DNA from: Bdellovibrio svalbardensis
GTDB lineage: Bacteria > Bdellovibrionota > Bdellovibrionia > Bdellovibrionales > Bdellovibrionaceae
Reading direction: 5' to 3'
DNA length: 64,000 nt
Assembly (NCBI RefSeq): GCF_029531655.1
Contig: NZ_JANRMI010000001.1
Location: forward strand, 558,001 to 622,000
A model generated the notes under the pieces. It ran no database searches. It saw only the letters and a program-made list of their open reading frames with translations, and was not told where the DNA came from. This document shows positions 1 through 10,502 of this stretch, piece by piece (positions within the stretch are counted from its first letter, which is position 1; each line of letters opens with the position of its first letter). The translations under genes and the position numbers were made by a program.

Positions 1-441
1 GCGAAATACAAGGTCGTTAAAAAAGACCCTGAAGAAAAAAAAGGTCTGCGCCATGTCCTGAATCTGGGGCATACCGTTGGGCATGTTCTTGAAAGCTATT
101 ATGAGCTTCCGCACGGCATTTCTATCAACTACGGTTTGGAATTCGCGCTTCGCTGGAGTGTGGAAAAGAAGATCATGGCCAGGGAAGATTTTGATAGATT
201 GCAGCGTCAGCCAGTGATGGCCTATCTGCTTTCTGCCTCGGCGGATCAGTTGTGGGATGTGAAGGCAAATGTCCTCAAAGAATTCCGACGCTTGCTTTTG
301 AACGACAAGAAGAAAACAAAATCTGAAACATTGCGCTTCGTCTTTATCAAAAAGGCCGGTCAGACGGTTATTAAAGAAGTTCCTGTCGATGACATTCTGG
401 TCGAGATTTGTCGTCAAAGAGAAGAAGAGTTGAATGGGTAA
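1..441 (+). CDS. aroB: 3-dehydroquinate synthase, C-terminal part (window edge)
   Basis: This is the C-terminal ~146 residues of AroB, which closes DAHP to 3-dehydroquinate in the second shikimate step. The frame is open from base 1, so the N-terminal part lies outside the window. Early residues read LNLGHTVGHVLESYYELPHG, the metal-binding His segment of the dehydroquinate synthase family (NLGHT-GH-E plus HG). The rest is helical, as expected for the C-terminal domain. The stop overlaps the start of aroA by 8 bases, so the two are probably translated from one message. The call is secure; only the 5' extent is unknown. Confidence 0.93.
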   Translation, partial: AKYKVVKKDPEEKKGLRHVLNLGHTVGHVLESYYELPHGISINYGLEFALRWSVEKKIMAREDFDRLQRQPVMAYLLSASADQLWDVKANVLKEFRRLLLNDKKKTKSETLRFVFIKKAGQTVIKEVPVDDILVEICRQREEELNG

Positions 442-1609
442 TTTTCGCTTTCGCGGAGACATTCCGGGATCCAAATCTGTATTTAACCGCGCTTTGATTG
501 TGCAAAGTTATTTCCCTGTTTTGGATCTTCGAGGTTTTTCCGAATGCGATGACGTTCGCCATATGCGTGAAGGTCTTAAAGACATTCGCGATCGCAGCCG
601 CATCGACTGCGGTGAAGGTGGGACCACTTTTCGCTTTATGGCCCTGCGAGCTTCGAGACATCGAGGCGTGCATATTCTGGAAGCGGCCACGCGCTTGTTG
701 GAGCGGCCTCAAAAAGGTTTGTTGGATCTTTTAAATCAGTTGGGCGTGCAAACTCATATCAAACGTAATGAGTTGTATGTCATCAGTGAAGGTTGGAAAA
801 GACCACGCGGCCCCATCTTTGTGGATACTTCCGAGTCCAGTCAGTATGCATCTGCATTGGTTTTGAATGCCTGGCTGTTGGATTTTGATTTGGAGTTCGA
901 GCTGGTCGGTGATCGTGTTTCAGAATCCTATTTTGATTTGACGATGAAGATGCTTCGCTATTTGGGTATGCGCTATCAAAAGACGCCCAAGGGTTATTTG
1001 ATTCCCGCGGGACAAAGAATTGAAAAGTTGCAGTATGATATTGAAGCGGATTTAAGTTCAGGCTTCACAATGGCCGCGGCAGGGGCCTTGGCTGGTGAGA
1101 GTGTTATTACCAACTTTCCTTTACAGAGTCAGCAACCCGACAAAGTTTTTGTCGATATCTTAAAGCGCATGGGCGCAGAGGTTGAGCTTTCCGAAAATAC
1201 ATTGAGAGTTGTTAAGCCCACGATATTGAAATCTGTTGATTGTGACTTGTATCAGTCACCCGATCTCTTCCCGGTTTTGGCTGTGTTGTGCAGCTGGGCG
1301 GAGGGAACTTCGAAGCTATATAACGCTCCTCATTTGGTGAAGAAAGAATCCAATCGGATTCAGAGAGTCTCGGATCTTTTGTCTCTTGTGGGGGTTCGGC
1401 ATGAAATATTGCCTGATGGCATGATCATTCATGGAGATCCTCAACAAAAGCTGGTGAAAAAAGTATCGTTTAATCCTGATAAAGATCATCGCATGGTGAT
1501 GGCGGCATCTTTGATGAAACTTAAAGGGCACGGCATCACGATCGAGGAGCCTCAGGCCATCAACAAAAGCTTTCCTGAGTTTTGGGAAATGATAGGACTT
1601 CAACCATGA
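434..1609 (+). CDS. aroA: 3-phosphoshikimate 1-carboxyvinyltransferase (EPSP synthase)
   Basis: AroA joins shikimate-3-phosphate and PEP to make EPSP, the sixth shikimate step. The N-terminus has the family signature GDIPGSKSVFNRAL, with the catalytic Lys in PGSKS. EGGTTFRFMAL replaces the usual GNAGT-R-L PEP-binding loop. DLSSGFTMAAAG and SPDLFPVLAVL match the central and C-terminal substrate loops. At 391 residues it is somewhat shorter than the usual ~430, and its loops are divergent, so inhibitor response cannot be predicted. The ATG lies inside the end of aroB, and the stop overlaps the next ATG as ATGA. It belongs to an aroB-aroA-aroKDE-aroC operon. Confidence 0.93.
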   Translation: MGNFRFRGDIPGSKSVFNRALIVQSYFPVLDLRGFSECDDVRHMREGLKDIRDRSRIDCGEGGTTFRFMALRASRHRGVHILEAATRLLERPQKGLLDLLNQLGVQTHIKRNELYVISEGWKRPRGPIFVDTSESSQYASALVLNAWLLDFDLEFELVGDRVSESYFDLTMKMLRYLGMRYQKTPKGYLIPAGQRIEKLQYDIEADLSSGFTMAAAGALAGESVITNFPLQSQQPDKVFVDILKRMGAEVELSENTLRVVKPTILKSVDCDLYQSPDLFPVLAVLCSWAEGTSKLYNAPHLVKKESNRIQRVSDLLSLVGVRHEILPDGMIIHGDPQQKLVKKVSFNPDKDHRMVMAASLMKLKGHGITIEEPQAINKSFPEFWEMIGLQP

Positions 1610-3432
1610 TTACGGTCGTGATCGGTCACCGCGGAACTGGAAAAACGGAATTGATGAAGCGCTTGCAGGTTTCCTTGCCAGCGGGCTCCGCTGAGTTCGT
1701 GGATCTCGATCATGAAATAGAAATGAAGATTGGCAAGACGATCATGGAGCTTTTCCTGGAACATGGAGAAGCCTACTTCCGTGAGCTGGAGCGCCAATTG
1801 TTCCTGGAAACTTTGCAGAAGCCTCACAAGGACATGTATCTATTTGTCGGCGCCGGCTTTGACGTCAATGTTTTGCCGGAAACAGTGCGCACACTTTGGG
1901 TGCGTCGTAAAACCGATCTGGATGGACGAATTTTCCTCAATCGTCCCCGGTTGAATCCTGAGATGTCGCCTTTGGAAGAGTTCTTAAAGCGCGCGAAGCA
2001 GAGAGAAGAGAATTACGCGAAGGTCGCTGATGAAGTGTATCTGATGCCGGAAGGGCTTTTTGAAAACCATCACTTTGTACTGGGTGTTGAGAAAGCCATT
2101 CTGACTCATACGGCGACTCACATAGGTGGATGTTTGACGCTTCTTCCATCACTTCATGATAAGCCTTTGCGTTGGCAAATGTTTAAAGATCGATTCGCAC
2201 AAAAAGGAATTGAACTGTTTGAATTGCGCGATGATTTTTTAACTCTCGAACGGATTCAACAAACCTTGCAGGAAATGCCTGGCGAGAAGTTTTTGTTTTC
2301 TTTCCGTGAGGTGAAAGATCGCAGAGAGTTTTGGACAAGTCCCGAGTGGTCTCAAATTTTAGCTCGTTCGACCTGGATCGATTGGCCTCTTGAACTGGGC
2401 AGCCCTGAGGAAGTTCTGAATCACGTTCCAAAAGAGAAACTGATCATTTCATGCCACGACATGAATGAGTTTGAGGCTTTGCAGTCTTATGAGAATCTGG
2501 CCGCTCATTTAAAGTTTGCTCCGATTGTAAAAAGCTATTCAGAACTTTGGGTTTATCACCAATGGCAAAAGGCCGTTTCATCGCATCGCAGTTTCTTGCC
2601 CAGATCAGAGAATGGTCGGTGGGCGTGGTACCGTCAATTGCAGATAGATCAGCAGCTTATCAACTTCTGGCGCGATGGTGAGGGCAGTGCCGGTGATCAA
2701 CCTTCCTTGTTTCAATGGTTGATGACTCCACAGCATCCTGTGAATTTTGCTGCAGTCTTGGGGGCTCCCGTTGAGCACAGTTTCACTCCCATCGAGCATG
2801 CCGAATTCTTCCATAAAAGAAATCTTCCAGTTTTTGCCGTTCATATTGAGCGCGAAGAGTGGGATGAAGCGATGCCCATTTTGCAGAAGCTGGGATTGCA
2901 ATATGCCGCAGTCACGGCACCTCACAAAGAAGCAGCGGCAAAATGGTGTGGGCATAAAGAGCTTTTTGCCTTGAATACTTTGTACTTCAATAAAGGAAAG
3001 CAACAATGGGTTGGGACCTCGACAGACGACGCGGGATTCTTAGAACTTATTGAAGGTGTTGGTATGATCGCACCCTTGCAAAAAGAGATTTTTGTCTGGG
3101 GCGGGGGCGGAACCTTGGGCATGATTCAAAAAGCTCTGCCTCATGCGAGCTATTTTTCATCGCGACAAGGGGCTGCGCGCCCGGGAACAGAAGACCTTGA
3201 AGGTGTTAAGCCGAAGATTTTGATTTGGGCGGCACCGCGGGGGCCGGAAACAGTTCTTCCTCCGAAAGAGTGGGATCCTGCGATGGTTTATGATTTAAAT
3301 TATAAAGAAGACTCCATGGGGCGTGAATATGCGCAACTCAGTGGGGCTAACTACCAGTCAGGTTTGACGATGTTTATCGCCCAGGCTCAATTGCAAAGAG
3401 TTTTCTGGCAAAAATGCGAGGATGATCTATGA
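1606..3432 (+). CDS. aroKDE: Trifunctional shikimate kinase / type I dehydroquinate dehydratase / shikimate dehydrogenase
   Basis: One 608-residue frame carries three shikimate enzymes in order. Residues ~1-165 are a shikimate kinase: P-loop GHRGTGKT at 7-14, DLDHEIE at ~33-39, FRELE and lid motif RPRL. Residues ~175-375 look like type I 3-dehydroquinate dehydratase: ELRDD, His in ISCHD (~284) and Schiff-base Lys in LKFAP (~303). Residues ~380-608 are shikimate dehydrogenase: GAPVEHSFTP, VTAPHK (~441), LNTL, GTSTDDAGF, glycine-rich WGGGGTLG (~499) and a closing LTMFIAQAQLQ. A TTG lies 24 bases upstream, but the ATG at 1606 overlaps the aroA stop as ATGA and starts directly on the kinase beta strand, so I chose it. 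Domain assignment is from motifs only; the dehydratase part is the most divergent. Confidence 0.88.
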   Translation: MITVVIGHRGTGKTELMKRLQVSLPAGSAEFVDLDHEIEMKIGKTIMELFLEHGEAYFRELERQLFLETLQKPHKDMYLFVGAGFDVNVLPETVRTLWVRRKTDLDGRIFLNRPRLNPEMSPLEEFLKRAKQREENYAKVADEVYLMPEGLFENHHFVLGVEKAILTHTATHIGGCLTLLPSLHDKPLRWQMFKDRFAQKGIELFELRDDFLTLERIQQTLQEMPGEKFLFSFREVKDRREFWTSPEWSQILARSTWIDWPLELGSPEEVLNHVPKEKLIISCHDMNEFEALQSYENLAAHLKFAPIVKSYSELWVYHQWQKAVSSHRSFLPRSENGRWAWYRQLQIDQQLINFWRDGEGSAGDQPSLFQWLMTPQHPVNFAAVLGAPVEHSFTPIEHAEFFHKRNLPVFAVHIEREEWDEAMPILQKLGLQYAAVTAPHKEAAAKWCGHKELFALNTLYFNKGKQQWVGTSTDDAGFLELIEGVGMIAPLQKEIFVWGGGGTLGMIQKALPHASYFSSRQGAARPGTEDLEGVKPKILIWAAPRGPETVLPPKEWDPAMVYDLNYKEDSMGREYAQLSGANYQSGLTMFIAQAQLQRVFWQKCEDDL

Positions 3433-4472
3433 GTGCAAATCAATTTGGTTCCCGTTTTGTGATCACCTCTTTTGGTGAAAGCCATGGAACTGCTTTAGGC
3501 GTATTGATTGATGGTTGTCCAGCGGGAGTCACATTTGATGAGGCACTTCTGAAGAAGGAACTTGAGCGTCGCAGGCCGGGCCATCATGGGGCCGGAGCTG
3601 GGCAAGTTGTCGGGCAAGTCGTTTCTGGCAGAGCGGAGACCGATGCCGCAGAAGTATTGAGCGGAGTCTTCGAGGGAAAAACCCTGGGAACACCGATTGC
3701 GATGATCGTGAGAAATCAAGATGCGCGTTCCGAAGACTATGCACAAATTCAGAAGGCACCGCGAGCAGGGCATGCTGATGATATGTGGAAGAATAAATTC
3801 GGTCACAGTGATCATCGCGGTGGCGGTCGTTCTTCAGGCCGAGAAACAGTTTCACGTGTGATGGCCGGATCAGTGGCGCAAATGATGATGGCGCATGTAA
3901 GTGCACCAACAAAAGTCATTGGTTACGCCTCTCAGATTGGTTCTTACGAATTGACGCCCGACGAACGTGTTCGTGTGACGCAAAATCATATTGATTCCTA
4001 TCAGGCGCGTTTTCCCTCTGTTCGTCACAATGAAATTGCGGAAATGCTAAAAAAAGCTCAAGAGTCAGGTGAAAGTTATGGCGGAGTGGCCGAGATCTTG
4101 GTGCAAAATCCTCCCGCAAATTTGGGACAGCCGGTATTTCATAAATTGAAATCGGATTTAGCCCAGGCTTTCTTGAGTGTGGGTGCCGCCAACGGTTTTG
4201 AATTGGGTTTGGGTTTTGAATCCGCAGCGGTGCAGGGAACTTCGTTTCATCAGGGTTCGCAAGAAGCTTATGGCGGGATTCGCGGGGGAATATCGACAGG
4301 GGAGTCCATTCTTCTCAGAGTTTCTTTTAAGCCCACCAGTTCGATTTTGGATGTCGCAAAAAAAGGCCGTCACGATCCCTGCATCGTCACGCGTGCCATT
4401 CCGGTTCTCGAGGCCATGACATGGCTCGTGTTGGCAGACCACTATTTGTGGTCTAAAACCGATAGAATATAA
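3429..4472 (+). CDS. aroC: Chorismate synthase
   Basis: AroC removes phosphate from EPSP to give chorismate, using reduced flavin. The 347 residues match the usual bacterial length. The start reads FGSRFVITSFGESHGTALG, the family signature, followed by ERRRPGHHG. HSDHRGGGRSSGRETVSRV carries the His and Arg residues of the FMN/substrate site. GGIRGGISTGESI and GRHDPCIVTRAIPV are the late conserved blocks. The ATG overlaps the preceding stop as ATGA. In this neighbourhood the chorismate probably goes to menaquinone, since menF, menD, menH and menB lie within 8 kb and no tryptophan or tyrosine branch gene is seen. Confidence 0.96.
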   Translation: MSANQFGSRFVITSFGESHGTALGVLIDGCPAGVTFDEALLKKELERRRPGHHGAGAGQVVGQVVSGRAETDAAEVLSGVFEGKTLGTPIAMIVRNQDARSEDYAQIQKAPRAGHADDMWKNKFGHSDHRGGGRSSGRETVSRVMAGSVAQMMMAHVSAPTKVIGYASQIGSYELTPDERVRVTQNHIDSYQARFPSVRHNEIAEMLKKAQESGESYGGVAEILVQNPPANLGQPVFHKLKSDLAQAFLSVGAANGFELGLGFESAAVQGTSFHQGSQEAYGGIRGGISTGESILLRVSFKPTSSILDVAKKGRHDPCIVTRAIPVLEAMTWLVLADHYLWSKTDRI

Positions 4473-4507: not shown

Positions 4508-5407
4508 ATGGTTTCCGATATTTTTAATCCTGAGTGGTGGACTGAAGTTCCTGGTTTTAAATTTCAAGATATTACATATCACCGCGCCAAAGATCAGGGC
4601 ACCGTTCGCATTGCCTTTAACAGACCGGAAGTGCGCAATGCCTTTAGACCGCAAACCGTGGATGAACTTTATACGGCCTTGGAGCATGCTCGCGTCACTC
4701 CGGATGTAGGGGTTGTTCTTATCACGGGCAATGGTCCTTCACCCAAAGACGGTGGCTGGGCTTTCTGTTCAGGGGGCGATCAACGCATTCGCGGTAAAGA
4801 TGGCTACAAGTACGAAGATAAAGAAGCTGTTGGCAAGGCGGACCTGGCTCGTTTGGGTCGTTTGCATATTCTGGAAGTTCAGCGTTTGATTCGCTTTATG
4901 CCGAAGGTGGTTGTGGCCGTGGTTCCGGGTTGGTCCGTGGGTGGCGGGCATTCGCTGCATGTTGTTTGTGATCTTACCTTGGCCAGCCAAGAGCATGCGA
5001 TCTTTAAACAGACAGATCCTGATGTGGCCAGCTTCGACAGCGGTTATGGCTCGGCTTATCTGGCAAAAATGGTGGGACAAAAACGTGCTCGTGAAATCTT
5101 CTTCTTGGGGCGCAACTACTCTGCGCAGGAAGCTTTTGATATGGGGATGGTGAATGCCGTGATTCCTCATAAAGATTTGGAAAAAGTCGCCTTGGAATGG
5201 GCGAAGGAAATGAATTCGAAGAGCCCAACAGCTATGAGAATGCTCAAATATGGCTTCAACATGGTTGATGACGGTCTCGTTGGTCAGCAATTGTTTGCCG
5301 GTGAGGCAACTCGTCTTGCCTATGGTACTGAAGAAGCAGTCGAAGGTCGCAATTCCTTCGTAGAGAAACGTCCTAAAGACTTCTCTAAATTCCCTTGGCA
5401 CTACTAG
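4508..5407 (+). CDS. menB: 1,4-dihydroxy-2-naphthoyl-CoA synthase
   Basis: A crotonase-fold enzyme that closes the second ring of menaquinone from o-succinylbenzoyl-CoA. Diagnostic segments are TVRIAFNRPEVRNAFRP, WAFCSGGDQRIRG (oxyanion-hole loop), VPGWSVGGGHSLH, and FDSGYGSAYLAKMVGQKRA, which is typical of MenB rather than generic enoyl-CoA hydratases. The C-terminus EGRNSFVEKRPKDFSKFPW is also MenB-like. At 299 residues it is close to the family length (~285). A GAGG ribosome site lies just before the ATG. It follows aroC by 35 bases and may share its transcript. Confidence 0.95.
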   Translation: MVSDIFNPEWWTEVPGFKFQDITYHRAKDQGTVRIAFNRPEVRNAFRPQTVDELYTALEHARVTPDVGVVLITGNGPSPKDGGWAFCSGGDQRIRGKDGYKYEDKEAVGKADLARLGRLHILEVQRLIRFMPKVVVAVVPGWSVGGGHSLHVVCDLTLASQEHAIFKQTDPDVASFDSGYGSAYLAKMVGQKRAREIFFLGRNYSAQEAFDMGMVNAVIPHKDLEKVALEWAKEMNSKSPTAMRMLKYGFNMVDDGLVGQQLFAGEATRLAYGTEEAVEGRNSFVEKRPKDFSKFPWHY

Positions 5408-6242: not shown

Positions 6243-6956
6243 TTATTTAACAGTGCCTTTGTAGATGTAAGCGATGCCGCCAGTTAGAGAGATGTATTCC
6301 ATCTTTGAGAACTGACCGCTTTCTTTCATCAAATCTACGAAGCCGTCTTTGCAGGGGAAGGCCGCAGAAGATTTCTGCAAATACTCGTAAGCATCTTTTT
6401 GGCCCGTTACGAGACCGCCGATTTTAGGCAGGATGTTTTGAGAATAGAAATTGTAAAGTGGACCGAACACAGGAATGCTGACCTGTCCAAATTCAAGGAC
6501 CATCACTTTGCCGCCAGACTTCGTCACACGACCCATTTCGCGCAAAGCTTGCACGGGATCGCTCACATTGCGAATGCCGAAAGAGATGCTGGAAACATCA
6601 AAAGTCTTGTCAGTGTACTGAAGTTGAGTCACGTCAGCTTGTTCGAATTGAATCTCAAGGCCACGCTCTTTGGCTTTGCCTGGAGCCGGAATCAACATCT
6701 CTGCGCAGAAATCGGTACCGATCACAGCGCCGTTATTGCCCACTGTTTTCTTGAATTCAATCGCCAGGTCGCCGGTGCCTGTCGCGCAATCCAAAACCTT
6801 GTCGCCAGGTTTTGCGCCTGCGTACTTAACAAGTTTCTTTCTCCAGAGGTGATGCACACCCATAGAAAGAACGTTGTTTCCTTTGTCATAGTTCGCCGCA
6901 ACTTTGGAGAACATAGAACGAATGATTTCAGGATTTGGAGAATGATTAGTGGGCAT
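6243..6956 (-). CDS. menG: Demethylmenaquinone methyltransferase (UbiE/MenG family)
   Basis: A SAM-dependent methyltransferase of the UbiE family, 237 residues. RSMFSKVAANYDKGNNVLSMGVHHLWRK is the family start, and VLDCATGTGDLA is the SAM-binding motif I. The late block SISFGIRNVSDPVQALREMGRV, with GGKVMVLEFG, is also typical. UbiE enzymes act on demethylmenaquinone and, where present, on a ubiquinone precursor. The window has only menaquinone genes, so the menaquinone role is more likely. The start overlaps the end of the DAHP synthase gene by 11 bases, so the two form an operon with DAHP synthase first. Confidence 0.93.
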   Translation of the reverse strand: MPTNHSPNPEIIRSMFSKVAANYDKGNNVLSMGVHHLWRKKLVKYAGAKPGDKVLDCATGTGDLAIEFKKTVGNNGAVIGTDFCAEMLIPAPGKAKERGLEIQFEQADVTQLQYTDKTFDVSSISFGIRNVSDPVQALREMGRVTKSGGKVMVLEFGQVSIPVFGPLYNFYSQNILPKIGGLVTGQKDAYEYLQKSSAAFPCKDGFVDLMKESGQFSKMEYISLTGGIAYIYKGTVK

Positions 6957-7779
6957 GTTCAGTCACCTTGTGAAGAGGTCTGTCGATTGCTGTCAGAATT
7001 TTATCAAGTTTTTTCATCATCGCGCTGAAGTCGCTCAACGTAAGAGCTTGCATGCCATCAGAAAGAGCTTCTGCGGGACGAGGATGAACTTCAACGATGA
7101 TTCCGTCAGCTCCTACCGCGGCTGCAGCACAAGCCAGATCAGGAACCAAAGCGCGAATACCCACTGCATGAGAAGGATCCACGATCACCGGAAGATTTGT
7201 ATTTCTTTTTGCGTAAGCAACAGCATTTAAATCCAACGTGTTACGAGTCGCAGTTTCAAAAGTACGGATACCGCGCTCGCAAAGGATGACGTTTTGATTG
7301 CCACCATTGGTGATGTACTCAGCAGCTTTGATCCATTCGTTGATGTAAGCAGATAAACCGCGTTTCAAAAGAACTGGTTTTCTTTGTTTGCCCAGCTCAC
7401 GAAGCAATTCATAGTTTTGCATGCTGCGTGAACCGACTTGGAAGCACTCTACCAGATCGTAGATTTCTTCGATTTGACGGATGTCAGTCACTTCAGAGAC
7501 AAGGCTCATGTTGGTCTCTTTGCAGACGTTCTTAACGAAATCGAATGCAGCGGAACCCAATCCTTGGAAGTCTTTGGATGAGGTTCTCATTTTCCAAATA
7601 CCACCACGAAGTAAGTGAGCACCGGATGCCTTGACTCCGTTGGCCGTTTCCATGAATTGCGCAGGGCTTTCGATAGAGCATGGACCAGCGATCACTGTGA
7701 AGTTGGGACCACCGATATCAAACCCGCCAATATTGACTATTTGGGTTGAGGGACTTGTTTGCATAGTTTGAATTTCCAT
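6946..7779 (-). CDS. aroF: 3-deoxy-7-phosphoheptulonate (DAHP) synthase, KDO8P-synthase-like type
   Basis: This enzyme makes DAHP from PEP and erythrose-4-phosphate, the entry to the shikimate pathway. The 277 residues show FTVIAGPCSIES, LLRGGIWKMRTSS, QVGSRSMQNYELLRELG, PVLLKRGLSAYINEW, VILCERGIRTFE, LPVIVDPSHAVG and GADGIIVEVHPRP, the standard blocks of the small (I-beta) class. No chorismate mutase or ACT regulatory domain is attached, so allosteric control through those domains is absent. The ATG at 7779 lacks a clear ribosome site; an in-frame ATG five codons in is an alternative. It is divergent from menF, so one control region may serve the entry step and the first menaquinone-specific step. 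Confidence 0.93.
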   Translation of the reverse strand: MEIQTMQTSPSTQIVNIGGFDIGGPNFTVIAGPCSIESPAQFMETANGVKASGAHLLRGGIWKMRTSSKDFQGLGSAAFDFVKNVCKETNMSLVSEVTDIRQIEEIYDLVECFQVGSRSMQNYELLRELGKQRKPVLLKRGLSAYINEWIKAAEYITNGGNQNVILCERGIRTFETATRNTLDLNAVAYAKRNTNLPVIVDPSHAVGIRALVPDLACAAAAVGADGIIVEVHPRPAEALSDGMQALTLSDFSAMMKKLDKILTAIDRPLHKVTEHAH

Positions 7780-7821: not shown

Positions 7822-8934
7822 GTGGATCGGCAGAATAGCATAACGCTTCAAAGCTTTACAAACTTTTTACGGTCAGGGGCCCTCTTGCGACATGAGGGCC
7901 AATGGATCCTCATTGAAGGCCCATTTGAACCTGTAAAAAATGCCAATTCGTCAGCTAATTCATCAGAGATTTCAGTATTTTGGCCCGATTTTTATGAACT
8001 CGAAGGCAAGCCCCTTTTTCAAGGAACTGTCACGTACGAACTAAAGAGCTCTGACATTCAGCAGATTTGCGAGAGTTATTTGCGCGCGAATGCAGTGAGT
8101 GACGGCCCCCAAAGCAAAATCCTAGGCAAGGCGCCATGGCGTGAGCCTCTGCAAGAGCACTTCGCGACGGCCTTAATTAGCATGCTTGCAAAAATCAAAG
8201 ATGGTGAAATTCAAAAAGCAGTTCCGGCGGTGTTTGCGCGAACTGCACAAACAGTGAGTCCCCATGACCTCGCGCAGATGATTTTCAATCTAAGCAAAGC
8301 GCCTGAGACTTTGCATGTCTATGGGTTCTGGCAAAACGGCGAAGGCGTGCTGGGGGCGACTCCCGAGGTGTTGTTCGATTTTGATTTCGGAATTTTGAAA
8401 ACCATGGCCTTGGCAGGCACGTGTCCAAAAAGTGAAAGCACAGAACGTGAATCCTTGCTTAAAGATCCGAAAGAAATGCAAGAGCATGGCTTGGTTGTTG
8501 AGGATCTAAAAAGTCGTTTGGCAAAATGGGGATCTGTGAAAACAGAGGGCCCAAAGATTTTAGAGCTTCCGACTTTGTTCCATCTCAAAACAGACTTTGT
8601 GGTGAAATGTCATGCAACGCCCAATTTCAGGAAACTGACTGAAGAGCTTCATCCGACTCCAGCATTGGGAGTGGCCCCACGTTCTGCGGGTTACAAGTGG
8701 ATGGCCGAGTACCCAGGTCAAGAGGGACGCCGAGGATTCGGAGGTCCATTCGCCTTTTTCGACCAGAATAAGGCTCTGTGTCTTGTCGGCATTCGAAATT
8801 TACAGTGGAATAGCGAGGAAGCCATGATTGGTTCAGGGTGCGGCGTTGTTGCTGCCAGTGAATTGGATCGCGAGTGGCGAGAACTCTTTCAAAAACGTTT
8901 ATCAGTGAAAAAGATTTTGGGGCTTGAATTATGA
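7822..8934 (+). CDS. menF: Isochorismate synthase
   Basis: MenF converts chorismate to isochorismate, committing it to menaquinone. The 370 residues have a short N-terminal lobe and the chorismate-binding core: IQKAVPAVFAR, GVLGATPEVLF, LKTMALAGTCP, the metal-binding segment KEMQEHGLVVEDL, LFHLKTDF, HPTPALGV and a final GSGCGVVAASELDREWREL. The start is GTG with GAGGG six bases upstream. The stop overlaps the menD ATG, as expected for translational coupling. Anthranilate and salicylate synthases share this fold, but the menD-menH neighbours settle the role. Confidence 0.92.
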   Translation: MDRQNSITLQSFTNFLRSGALLRHEGQWILIEGPFEPVKNANSSANSSEISVFWPDFYELEGKPLFQGTVTYELKSSDIQQICESYLRANAVSDGPQSKILGKAPWREPLQEHFATALISMLAKIKDGEIQKAVPAVFARTAQTVSPHDLAQMIFNLSKAPETLHVYGFWQNGEGVLGATPEVLFDFDFGILKTMALAGTCPKSESTERESLLKDPKEMQEHGLVVEDLKSRLAKWGSVKTEGPKILELPTLFHLKTDFVVKCHATPNFRKLTEELHPTPALGVAPRSAGYKWMAEYPGQEGRRGFGGPFAFFDQNKALCLVGIRNLQWNSEEAMIGSGCGVVAASELDREWRELFQKRLSVKKILGLEL

Positions 8935-10502
8935 CAAATATGGAACTTGCAGCAAAGGTCATTCAGGAGTTAGTGGACACTGGAGTTCGCGAATTTGTTT
9001 TATGTGCTGGAGCTCGAAACAGTCCCTTGGTGCATATTCTTGACGAGAATAAAAATCTTAAAGTTTATACGTTCTTTGAAGAGCGTTCTGCAGCTTTCTT
9101 TGCCTTGGGGCGAATCGCCAGCAGTCGTCGTCCGGTCGCAATCTTCACAACCTCTGGAACTGCCGTTGCAGAGCTTTTGCCAGCTGCAGTTGAGGGCACT
9201 TATTCATCTTTGCCATTGATCATGATTACTGCGGATCGTCCGAAGCACTATCGTGGCAGTGGGGCTCCGCAAACGATAGAGCAAGTTGGGATTTTTTCAT
9301 ACTACAATGAAGTGGCTTTGGATCTGGATGCAGAGAATTCGCATCTTTCTTTCAAAAGTCTTTCATGGAAAAAACCAATTCACGTCAACGTCAGTTTTGA
9401 AGAGCCTTTGATTGATGGGCCGGTTCCGCAAATTAAGATTCCAGCAGTCGCAGAGCGCACCAAGCTTCCAGGACAGACTCCACTTGGAACTTTGAAAGAG
9501 ATGGAAACTTTCTTGAATACTCACAAACCTTTGGTGATCGTGGGGATTCTTCCAGAAAAAGCTTATGGCACCGTTTTGGAGTTTTTGAAACAATACAAAG
9601 CGCCAGTTTATGCGGAAGGCATCTCAAGTCTTCGTGGGCATCCAGAGCTTCAGGATATTTTGATTCAATCCGGAGAACAGATGATTCACCGAATTCTGCA
9701 ATCTGGGGAGTGCGATTCCATCTTGCGCATCGGTGGCGTTCCTACGGTGCGTTTGTGGCGCGATCTTGAAGATAAATATAGAAAAATCCCGGTTTTCTCG
9801 GTCAGCTTTAATCACTACACGGGTTTAAGTCGTGAAGTCCAACACGTTAATTCATTGGATTTGCTAAGTCAGGTGGAGTTCACCTCGAAGCAACATGAAA
9901 ATGTAAAAGTGAATTTTGATGATGCTGCCCAAGCAGCCAAAGTCAGAGCTTTGCTGATGAAATATCCTGAGTCTGAGCAGGGTATGATTTATTCTTTGTC
10001 GAAGAAAATGAAAAAAAGCTCTGTGTATCTTGGAAATTCACTACCGATTCGTGAGTGGGATTCTTGTGCAGATCAGGATTCGCCTCCTTTGCGTGTAGCT
10101 GCGAATCGCGGAGCAAATGGTATCGACGGACAGATCTCGACGTTCATGGGCTGGGCTCATCCAGAGACTGAAAATTGGTGCCTTGTTGGGGATTTGACAG
10201 CAATGTATGATTTATCGGCACTTTGGGTCACTTCTCAGGTCGATGCTCAGAAGTTCCGTATTGTCGTTATCAACAATGGTGGGGGACAAATCTTCTCTCG
10301 CATGTTCAAAAAAGAGATTTTCATAAACAAACACCAGATTTCTTTCGAATCTTGGGCAAAGATGTGGAATTGGTCTTATCAGCAGTGGCATAATATTCCA
10401 GTAACAACTGAGTTGGCTGATAAACAGATCATCGAACTTTTGCCGAATGCGCAACAAACGCAGGATTTTTGGAAGGAGCTGGAAGCTCTGTGGAAAGAGT
10501 AA
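8931..10502 (+). CDS. menD: SEPHCHC synthase (2-oxoglutarate decarboxylase, menaquinone)
   Basis: A thiamine-diphosphate enzyme that adds a succinyl group from 2-oxoglutarate to isochorismate. The N-terminal pyrimidine-binding domain reads VREFVLCAGARNSPLVH, with the MenD-type FFEERSAAFFALGRI and ITADRPKHYRGSGAPQTIEQVG. The C-terminal domain has ANRGANGIDGQISTFMGWA and LVGDLTAMYDLSAL, then VINNGGGQIFS, completing the GDL...NN thiamine-diphosphate motif. At 523 residues it is slightly shorter than the E. coli enzyme (~556). It overlaps menF at its start and menH at its end. Confidence 0.95.
   Translation: MTNMELAAKVIQELVDTGVREFVLCAGARNSPLVHILDENKNLKVYTFFEERSAAFFALGRIASSRRPVAIFTTSGTAVAELLPAAVEGTYSSLPLIMITADRPKHYRGSGAPQTIEQVGIFSYYNEVALDLDAENSHLSFKSLSWKKPIHVNVSFEEPLIDGPVPQIKIPAVAERTKLPGQTPLGTLKEMETFLNTHKPLVIVGILPEKAYGTVLEFLKQYKAPVYAEGISSLRGHPELQDILIQSGEQMIHRILQSGECDSILRIGGVPTVRLWRDLEDKYRKIPVFSVSFNHYTGLSREVQHVNSLDLLSQVEFTSKQHENVKVNFDDAAQAAKVRALLMKYPESEQGMIYSLSKKMKKSSVYLGNSLPIREWDSCADQDSPPLRVAANRGANGIDGQISTFMGWAHPETENWCLVGDLTAMYDLSALWVTSQVDAQKFRIVVINNGGGQIFSRMFKKEIFINKHQISFESWAKMWNWSYQQWHNIPVTTELADKQIIELLPNAQQTQDFWKELEALWKE

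Follow-up and report, generated by a model that had tools for sequence, protein, structure and literature searches.

The AROM multi-enzyme of the shikimate pathway is regarded as a trait of fungi and protists. Its domains succeed one another in the order N-DHQS-EPSPS-SK-DHQD-SD-C (PMC6851490). In Candida albicans the AROM protein Aro1 has an inactive DHQase domain, whose step is taken over by a type II enzyme (PMC9074039); the presence of a domain in such a chain therefore proves nothing by itself. Multi-domain EPSPS proteins are described as rare among bacteria and as comprising two domains in most cases (PMC9394408), and the literature searched yielded no account of an AroK-AroD-AroE fusion in bacteria. 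Here we describe aroKDE of Bdellovibrio, a gene for a 608-residue chain that we take, with a probability of roughly 0.9, to be a single-chain trifunctional shikimate-pathway enzyme AroK-AroD-AroE, its three activities being predicted from sequence and from a structural model.

The aroKDE gene and its operon

The window is the whole stretch of 64,000 nucleotides that was analyzed (G000:C1:558001-622000), from a genome that is 99.9% complete. Within it the aroKDE reading frame is uninterrupted from the ATG at 1606 to the stop at 3432. The features of the locus and the evidence for each are as follows.

1..441, + strand: aroB (3-dehydroquinate synthase), C-terminal part; TIGR01357, E 7.5e-24
434..1609, + strand: aroA (EPSP synthase); PF00275, E 1.2e-54; 8 nt overlap with aroB
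1606..1609, + strand: ATGA overlap of the aroA stop with the aroKDE start; from the sequence
1606..3432, + strand: aroKDE, putative trifunctional fusion, 608 aa; ORF, Pfam, model and structure matches
1606..2100, + strand: shikimate kinase domain, residues 1-165; PF01202, E 1.2e-11, and invariant columns
2101..2739, + strand: predicted divergent type I dehydroquinate dehydratase domain, residues 166-378; model, family profile and alignment
2740..3429, + strand: shikimate dehydrogenase domain, residues 379-608; PF08501, E 1.6e-8, and VIA Z 21 to AroE structures
3429..4472, + strand: aroC (chorismate synthase); PF01264, E 1.4e-98; ATGA overlap with aroKDE at 3429-3432
4508..5407, + strand: menB, which uses a chorismate-derived intermediate (menaquinone); NF006186, E 9.1e-177
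6946..7779, - strand: DAHP synthase, step 1 of the shikimate pathway; NF006421, E 1.1e-117
7822-8934, + strand: isochorismate synthase, menF-like, a chorismate user
8931-10502, + strand: menD, a chorismate user

The start of aroB lies upstream of the window, at about 557.39 kb of the contig, and the complete aroB ORF was seen in L035. Most of the loci that we read have the order aroB, aroA, aroKDE, aroC, with the 4-nt ATGA overlap between aroA and aroKDE in 55 of the 88 loci whose junction is readable and an overlap of the same kind between aroKDE and aroC in 31 of 60. A sequence-only reading of this DNA had pointed to the adjacent aroB, aroA and aroC, and all three are present; given the domain order of AROM, the operon aroB-aroA-aroKDE is AROM in pieces. 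The same reading had called the order of domains within the fusion unusual, a description that we would not retain since the C-terminal part of AROM likewise runs SK-DHQase-SDH (PMC6851490). Together with menG, which also adjoins the operon, the neighboring menB, DAHP synthase, isochorismate synthase and menD genes point to menaquinone as one main destination of the chorismate made here. AroA of this clade is itself divergent: the protein encoded at 434-1609 scores 254.5 bits against a TIGR01356 cut-off of 287.25, and its Pfam match starts only at residue 56.

Three domains in one chain

Pfam recognizes the two ends of the protein, SKI at residues 9-143 (E 1.2e-11) and Shikimate_dh_N at residues 384-448 (E 1.6e-8), both over their cut-offs, and places nothing at residues of about 170-378. 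With NCBIfam the single-enzyme models match only in part, those of known bifunctional enzymes fall far below cut-off, and no trifunctional model is among the families shown for aroKDE. The kinase domain has the elements expected of a shikimate kinase, namely a Walker A motif (GHRGTGKT, 7-14), a DxD (D33/D35), the shikimate-binding Arg and a GxG (R59, G82xG84, R113), and G7, R9, G10, G12, K13, D35, R59, G82 and G84 are invariant among 61 relatives. In the dehydrogenase domain we assign S392, T437, K441, N457, D474 and Q593, of which K441, D474, N457 and Q593 are invariant in the same set and include the catalytic Lys/Asp pair of AroE; the Rossmann half is short, with GGGG at 499-502, and the match to AroE structures reaches Z 21. 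Across the 61 relatives the catalytic residues of the three domains vary little or not at all, as the sequence-only reading would have it when it described recognizable catalytic residues in each part of one 608-residue AroK-AroD-AroE chain; Pfam, the structural model and the family profile together recover the three domains.

Structure prediction and domain search, both of which had been suggested as checks, were carried out on the complete chain. The AlphaFold model has a pLDDT of 94.8 and a pTM of 0.93, and Foldseek ranks AROM 6hqv first (E 1.6e-22), the SK-DHQase-SDH piece of Candida Aro1 being also among the best PDB matches. With VIA, 527 residues (model 1-603) align to 6hqv_B at Z 18.7 with an rmsd of 18.6, so that domain placement differs between the aroKDE model and AROM. 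A chain cut or internally restarted into separate enzymes would make the fusion functionally meaningless; we consider this most improbable, since the linkers are short, the packing of domains in the model is confident, and a single frame has been maintained in relatives at about 30-76% identity.

The middle domain as a probable divergent dehydratase

It is the middle domain that requires the most care. None of the 36 family members scanned (the window protein and 35 relatives) has a Pfam match to DHquinase_I, and the domain falls below the curated PF01487 cut-off; because Pfam is silent it was tested instead by structure and by family profile. As matches to the dehydrogenase filled the VIA list for the whole chain, the middle domain was also folded alone (pLDDT 94.9). 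All eight Foldseek matches below 1e-3 are then dehydroquinases or AROM (best E 6.4e-6), and the first 41 rows from VIA are type I dehydroquinases aligned over ~200 residues with Z of 13.3-15.9, the next-ranked barrels lying at Z 12.0 or less. The predicted structure thus has the TIM-barrel fold of the type I enzymes. A search of the whole PDB with the middle-domain family profile returns the 3-dehydroquinate dehydratase 2ocz first (E 1.7e-4), in an alignment that pairs the E-R-D, S-x-H and K-x-A motifs with the middle domain, and the dehydroquinase 2egz second (E 0.085). When the domain was compared with five canonical AroD sequences profile to profile the match was weak, at 18% probability, a result that the structural matches and the PDB profile search supersede.

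On this basis we assign E206, R208, D210, R234, H284, K303, R343 and Q365, with K303 and H284 placed by alignment with 2ocz and 2egz and R343 and Q365 by motif, so that the Schiff-base Lys, the His acid/base and the substrate Arg and Gln all have predicted counterparts. E206, S282, H284, K303, P332, W341, R343, D364 and Q365 are found in 61/61 relatives. The position equivalent to Glu86, four residues past R234, varies freely among them. In the classical dehydroquinase Glu86 matters less than the Lys/His pair does, and the PDB contains ligand complexes of the Salmonella E86A enzyme (4gug, 4guh). Taken together, sequence and model argue for a strongly diverged dehydroquinate dehydratase of type I, with predicted activity. 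The type I assignment made from the sequence alone therefore agrees with both fold and Lys/His dyad, with the qualifications that the domain has diverged too far for Pfam and that its Glu86 position is not conserved.

The middle domain might, of course, be a dead or repurposed TIM barrel that links kinase and dehydrogenase, with an unrecognized enzyme dehydrating 3-dehydroquinate. In favor of this, the domain escapes Pfam and NCBIfam, it is the least conserved of the three, with a mean identity of 35% vs 43%, its Glu86 position is free to vary, and Candida albicans Aro1 provides a precedent. Against this, the least variable residues are precisely the catalytic ones, and the distribution of substitute enzymes described below points the other way, so that we regard a dead barrel as improbable.

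Either the fusion or a type II enzyme

Stand-alone aroK, aroD or aroE genes elsewhere in the genome would have spoken against the fusion as the source of these activities. In the genome of the window no other aroK, aroD, aroQ or aroE was found: profile searches gave no PF01487 or PF01220 match, and SKI and Shikimate_dh_N matched only in the aroKDE ORF. The survey was extended to 144 genomes of the class by four profile/family searches, from which co-occurrence was tallied, and PF01487 has zero matches throughout. Chorismate synthase is present in 130/144, and 124 of these have the fusion without either known dehydroquinase family. The six with chorismate synthase and no fusion are G042, G068, G069, G070, G099 and G114; the first four are the only genomes of the 144 with a type II dehydroquinase, while G099 and G114, which have neither fusion nor dehydroquinase, are 61% and 74% complete. 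Four genomes (G017, G031, G082, G107) have the fusion and no chorismate synthase. Both are absent from 10/144 (G066, G076, G090, G096, G115, G141, G142, G143, G001, G078), several of them near complete, which is consistent with loss of the shikimate pathway.

The either/or pattern of fusion and type II dehydroquinase speaks for the middle domain as the source of the dehydratase step, and we consider it the strongest indirect evidence for that role. It is the mirror image of the situation in Candida, where the catalytic dyad has disappeared from Aro1 in species having the type II enzyme (PMC9074039); in contrast to the lost His/Lys dyad of Candida albicans Aro1, the dyad of the aroKDE family is invariant. 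Invariant dyad, missing substitute genes and class-wide conservation lead us to the reading of the conserved aroKDE as probably trifunctional, with its domains in AROM order.

In the mechanism that we propose for the trifunctional chain, Lys303 of the middle TIM barrel would form the Schiff base by which 3-dehydroquinate is dehydrated, His284 serving as acid/base. The C-terminal domain, using Lys441/Asp474 and a nicotinamide cofactor that binds at GGGG 499-502, would reduce 3-dehydroshikimate to shikimate. Shikimate would then be phosphorylated by the P-loop domain at the N-terminus, and AroA and AroC from the same overlapping operon would complete chorismate, which could feed the adjacent menaquinone genes. 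By analogy with AROM the chain may dimerize via its dehydratase domain, and the benefit of fusion may be equal dosage of the three activities. Substrate channeling forms no part of the proposal; for Chaetomium AROM, work cited in PMC9074039 is summarized there as reporting no gain in throughput vs the isolated domains.

Spread of the K-D-E fusion

The survey of related genomes that had been suggested shows the same three-domain fusion in 128/144 genomes of the class, which rules out chance and sequencing or frameshift artefacts. The K-D-E fusion is a fixed trait of the lineage and not a passing intermediate. Elsewhere in the phylum it is found in at least eight genomes (G318, G326, G333, G335, G347, G349, G350, G367). 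Outside the phylum, L150, L152 (Lujinxingia vulgaris) and L154 (a Myxococcales MAG) encode chains of ~600 aa at 24-26% identity in which Pfam recognizes only kinase and dehydrogenase and whose middle part has E-x-R-S-D, S-x-H and IKYxP motifs; aroC adjoins the gene in all three. Judging from these sequences, the K-D-E core may predate the phylum or may have spread by transfer. L109 and L100, from MAGs labeled Planctomycetota and Deltaproteobacteria, have K-D-E chains that fall inside the Bdellovibrionota tree, probably because the bins are mislabeled or through transfer.

Other arrangements also occur in the phylum. Family f17 (L156:183-1637, L157:293-1513, L159:2052-3299), which belongs to it, has a canonical stand-alone aroD beside a fusion of the E-K order, shikimate dehydrogenase followed by shikimate kinase. 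Canonical type I dehydroquinase is found in five genomes of the phylum, among them G204, where it forms a bifunctional AroD-AroE (L155:661-2199) that adjoins aroB and aroC.

A fourth domain

In nine genomes a single frame holds both aroA and aroKDE, the domain matches lying about 6-15 residues apart. These are G036 and G037 (978 aa), five members of family f7, whose frames measure 1027-1138 aa, and, from family f26, G326 and G333; G082 is a further, truncated case. On the K-D-E tree the A-K-D-E carriers form three separate clades. The 30-row tree requires three state changes (bootstrap 5%-95% range 3-3), and grouping the A-K-D-E fusions as one clade is rejected (AU test on 30 rows, lnL difference 38.5, p-AU 0.0033). 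Three gains of the aroA fusion, or one gain with losses, are possible, and gains are favored because the fused state is rare. A single frame shift at the ATGA junction would be enough to join the two genes.

No aroB fusion was seen in any locus read. The 1366-aa frame of G333 was considered as a five-domain AROM and rejected because aroB sits in a different frame, leaving A-K-D-E; in G084 and L109, too, the long frames result from overlap and are not fusions. In G128 (Bdellovibrionales RBG_16_40_8; L134:6222-8552 and L168:3825-6155) the dehydrogenase end continues in frame into chorismate synthase, giving a 777-aa frame on a contig that ends within aroC. This is a possible K-D-E-C fusion; since the kinase part appears frame-shifted, the frame may be an assembly error.

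Ancestry of the AROM order

The bacterial K-D-E and eukaryotic AROM could descend from one fused ancestor, with transfer in either direction, in which case the shared order would be homology. The order is certainly identical, including the upstream aroB and aroA of the operon and the A-K-D-E of some relatives, and AROM chains head the PDB list obtained with the family profile, although only as the sum of two domains. Domain by domain, however, the scores prefer bacterial enzymes: 84.8 bits vs 52 for AROM with the dehydrogenase profile, 66 vs 54 or less with the kinase profile, and 147 vs 110 for AroA, while on aroKDE itself the AroE model scores 63.7 bits and the AROM-SDH model 23.2. The window kinase domain alone has no AROM match at 1e-3, the AROM kinase is, other AROM aside, nearest to ordinary bacterial kinases, and the A-K-D-E fusions are not one clade. 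Sequence scores thus show no special kinship to AROM, common descent is not favored and we think it unlikely; the Bdellovibrio fusion is best read as a convergent AROM assembly.

The likeness to a partly assembled AROM that was drawn from the sequence consequently holds for layout and, on present evidence, does not extend to ancestry, the domains scoring closer to ordinary bacterial enzymes; nor is the chain a stage in passing, being fixed in the lineage, even if three separate clades have aroA joined to it. It is likely that the Bdellovibrionota independently assembled an AROM-like multi-enzyme, with a fixed K-D-E core, an operon in AROM order and aroA joined in separate lineages, and unsampled members may contain a complete five-domain bacterial AROM. 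If so, the AROM order would be favored by gene overlap or packing and would not be a frozen accident of eukaryotes. A bacterial lineage that has the AROM order, separate and fused aroA side by side, and culturable members is a natural experiment on why enzymes fuse, why they do so in this order and whether fusion alters flux. Throughout this clade, moreover, aroD would be called missing by standard family models. What seems new is a bacterial three-enzyme chain in AROM order to which a fourth enzyme has repeatedly been added in relatives.

Comparison with known systems

Bacterial AroK-AroB fusions (NF010556, NF010627) resemble aroKDE in being multi-enzymes that begin with shikimate kinase, but the partner is AroB rather than AroD-AroE, and aroKDE lies far below the cut-offs of both models. 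The bifunctional DHQase-SDH enzymes of plants and some bacteria (2gpt, NF006802) have the same two domains in the same order, with VIA aligning about 400 residues of the 2gpt type to residues 173-606 of the aroKDE model at Z 19; they lack the kinase, and aroKDE scores 27 bits against the NF006802 cut-off of 598. With canonical AroD (1qfe, 3js3) the middle domain has in common the TIM barrel (Z 15.7-15.9) and the E/R/D, H, K, R and Q positions, at an identity of 14-20% and with conserved GRWxWYR and DQP signatures and a variable Glu86 position of its own.

Closest in layout is AROM (Aro1; 6hqv, 7u5s, 7tbv), which shares the SK-DHQase-SDH order and the folds with the whole aroKDE chain. AROM is fungal or protist and carries AroB and AroA in the chain, whereas aroKDE is bacterial, has three domains with aroB and aroA as separate ORFs, and in the loci read AroB is never fused; its predicted dehydratase, of about 205 aa, is invisible to Pfam, and its domains score closer to bacterial enzymes. 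In nine bacterial relatives, as in fungal AROM, AroA shares the chain, in the order A-K-D-E.
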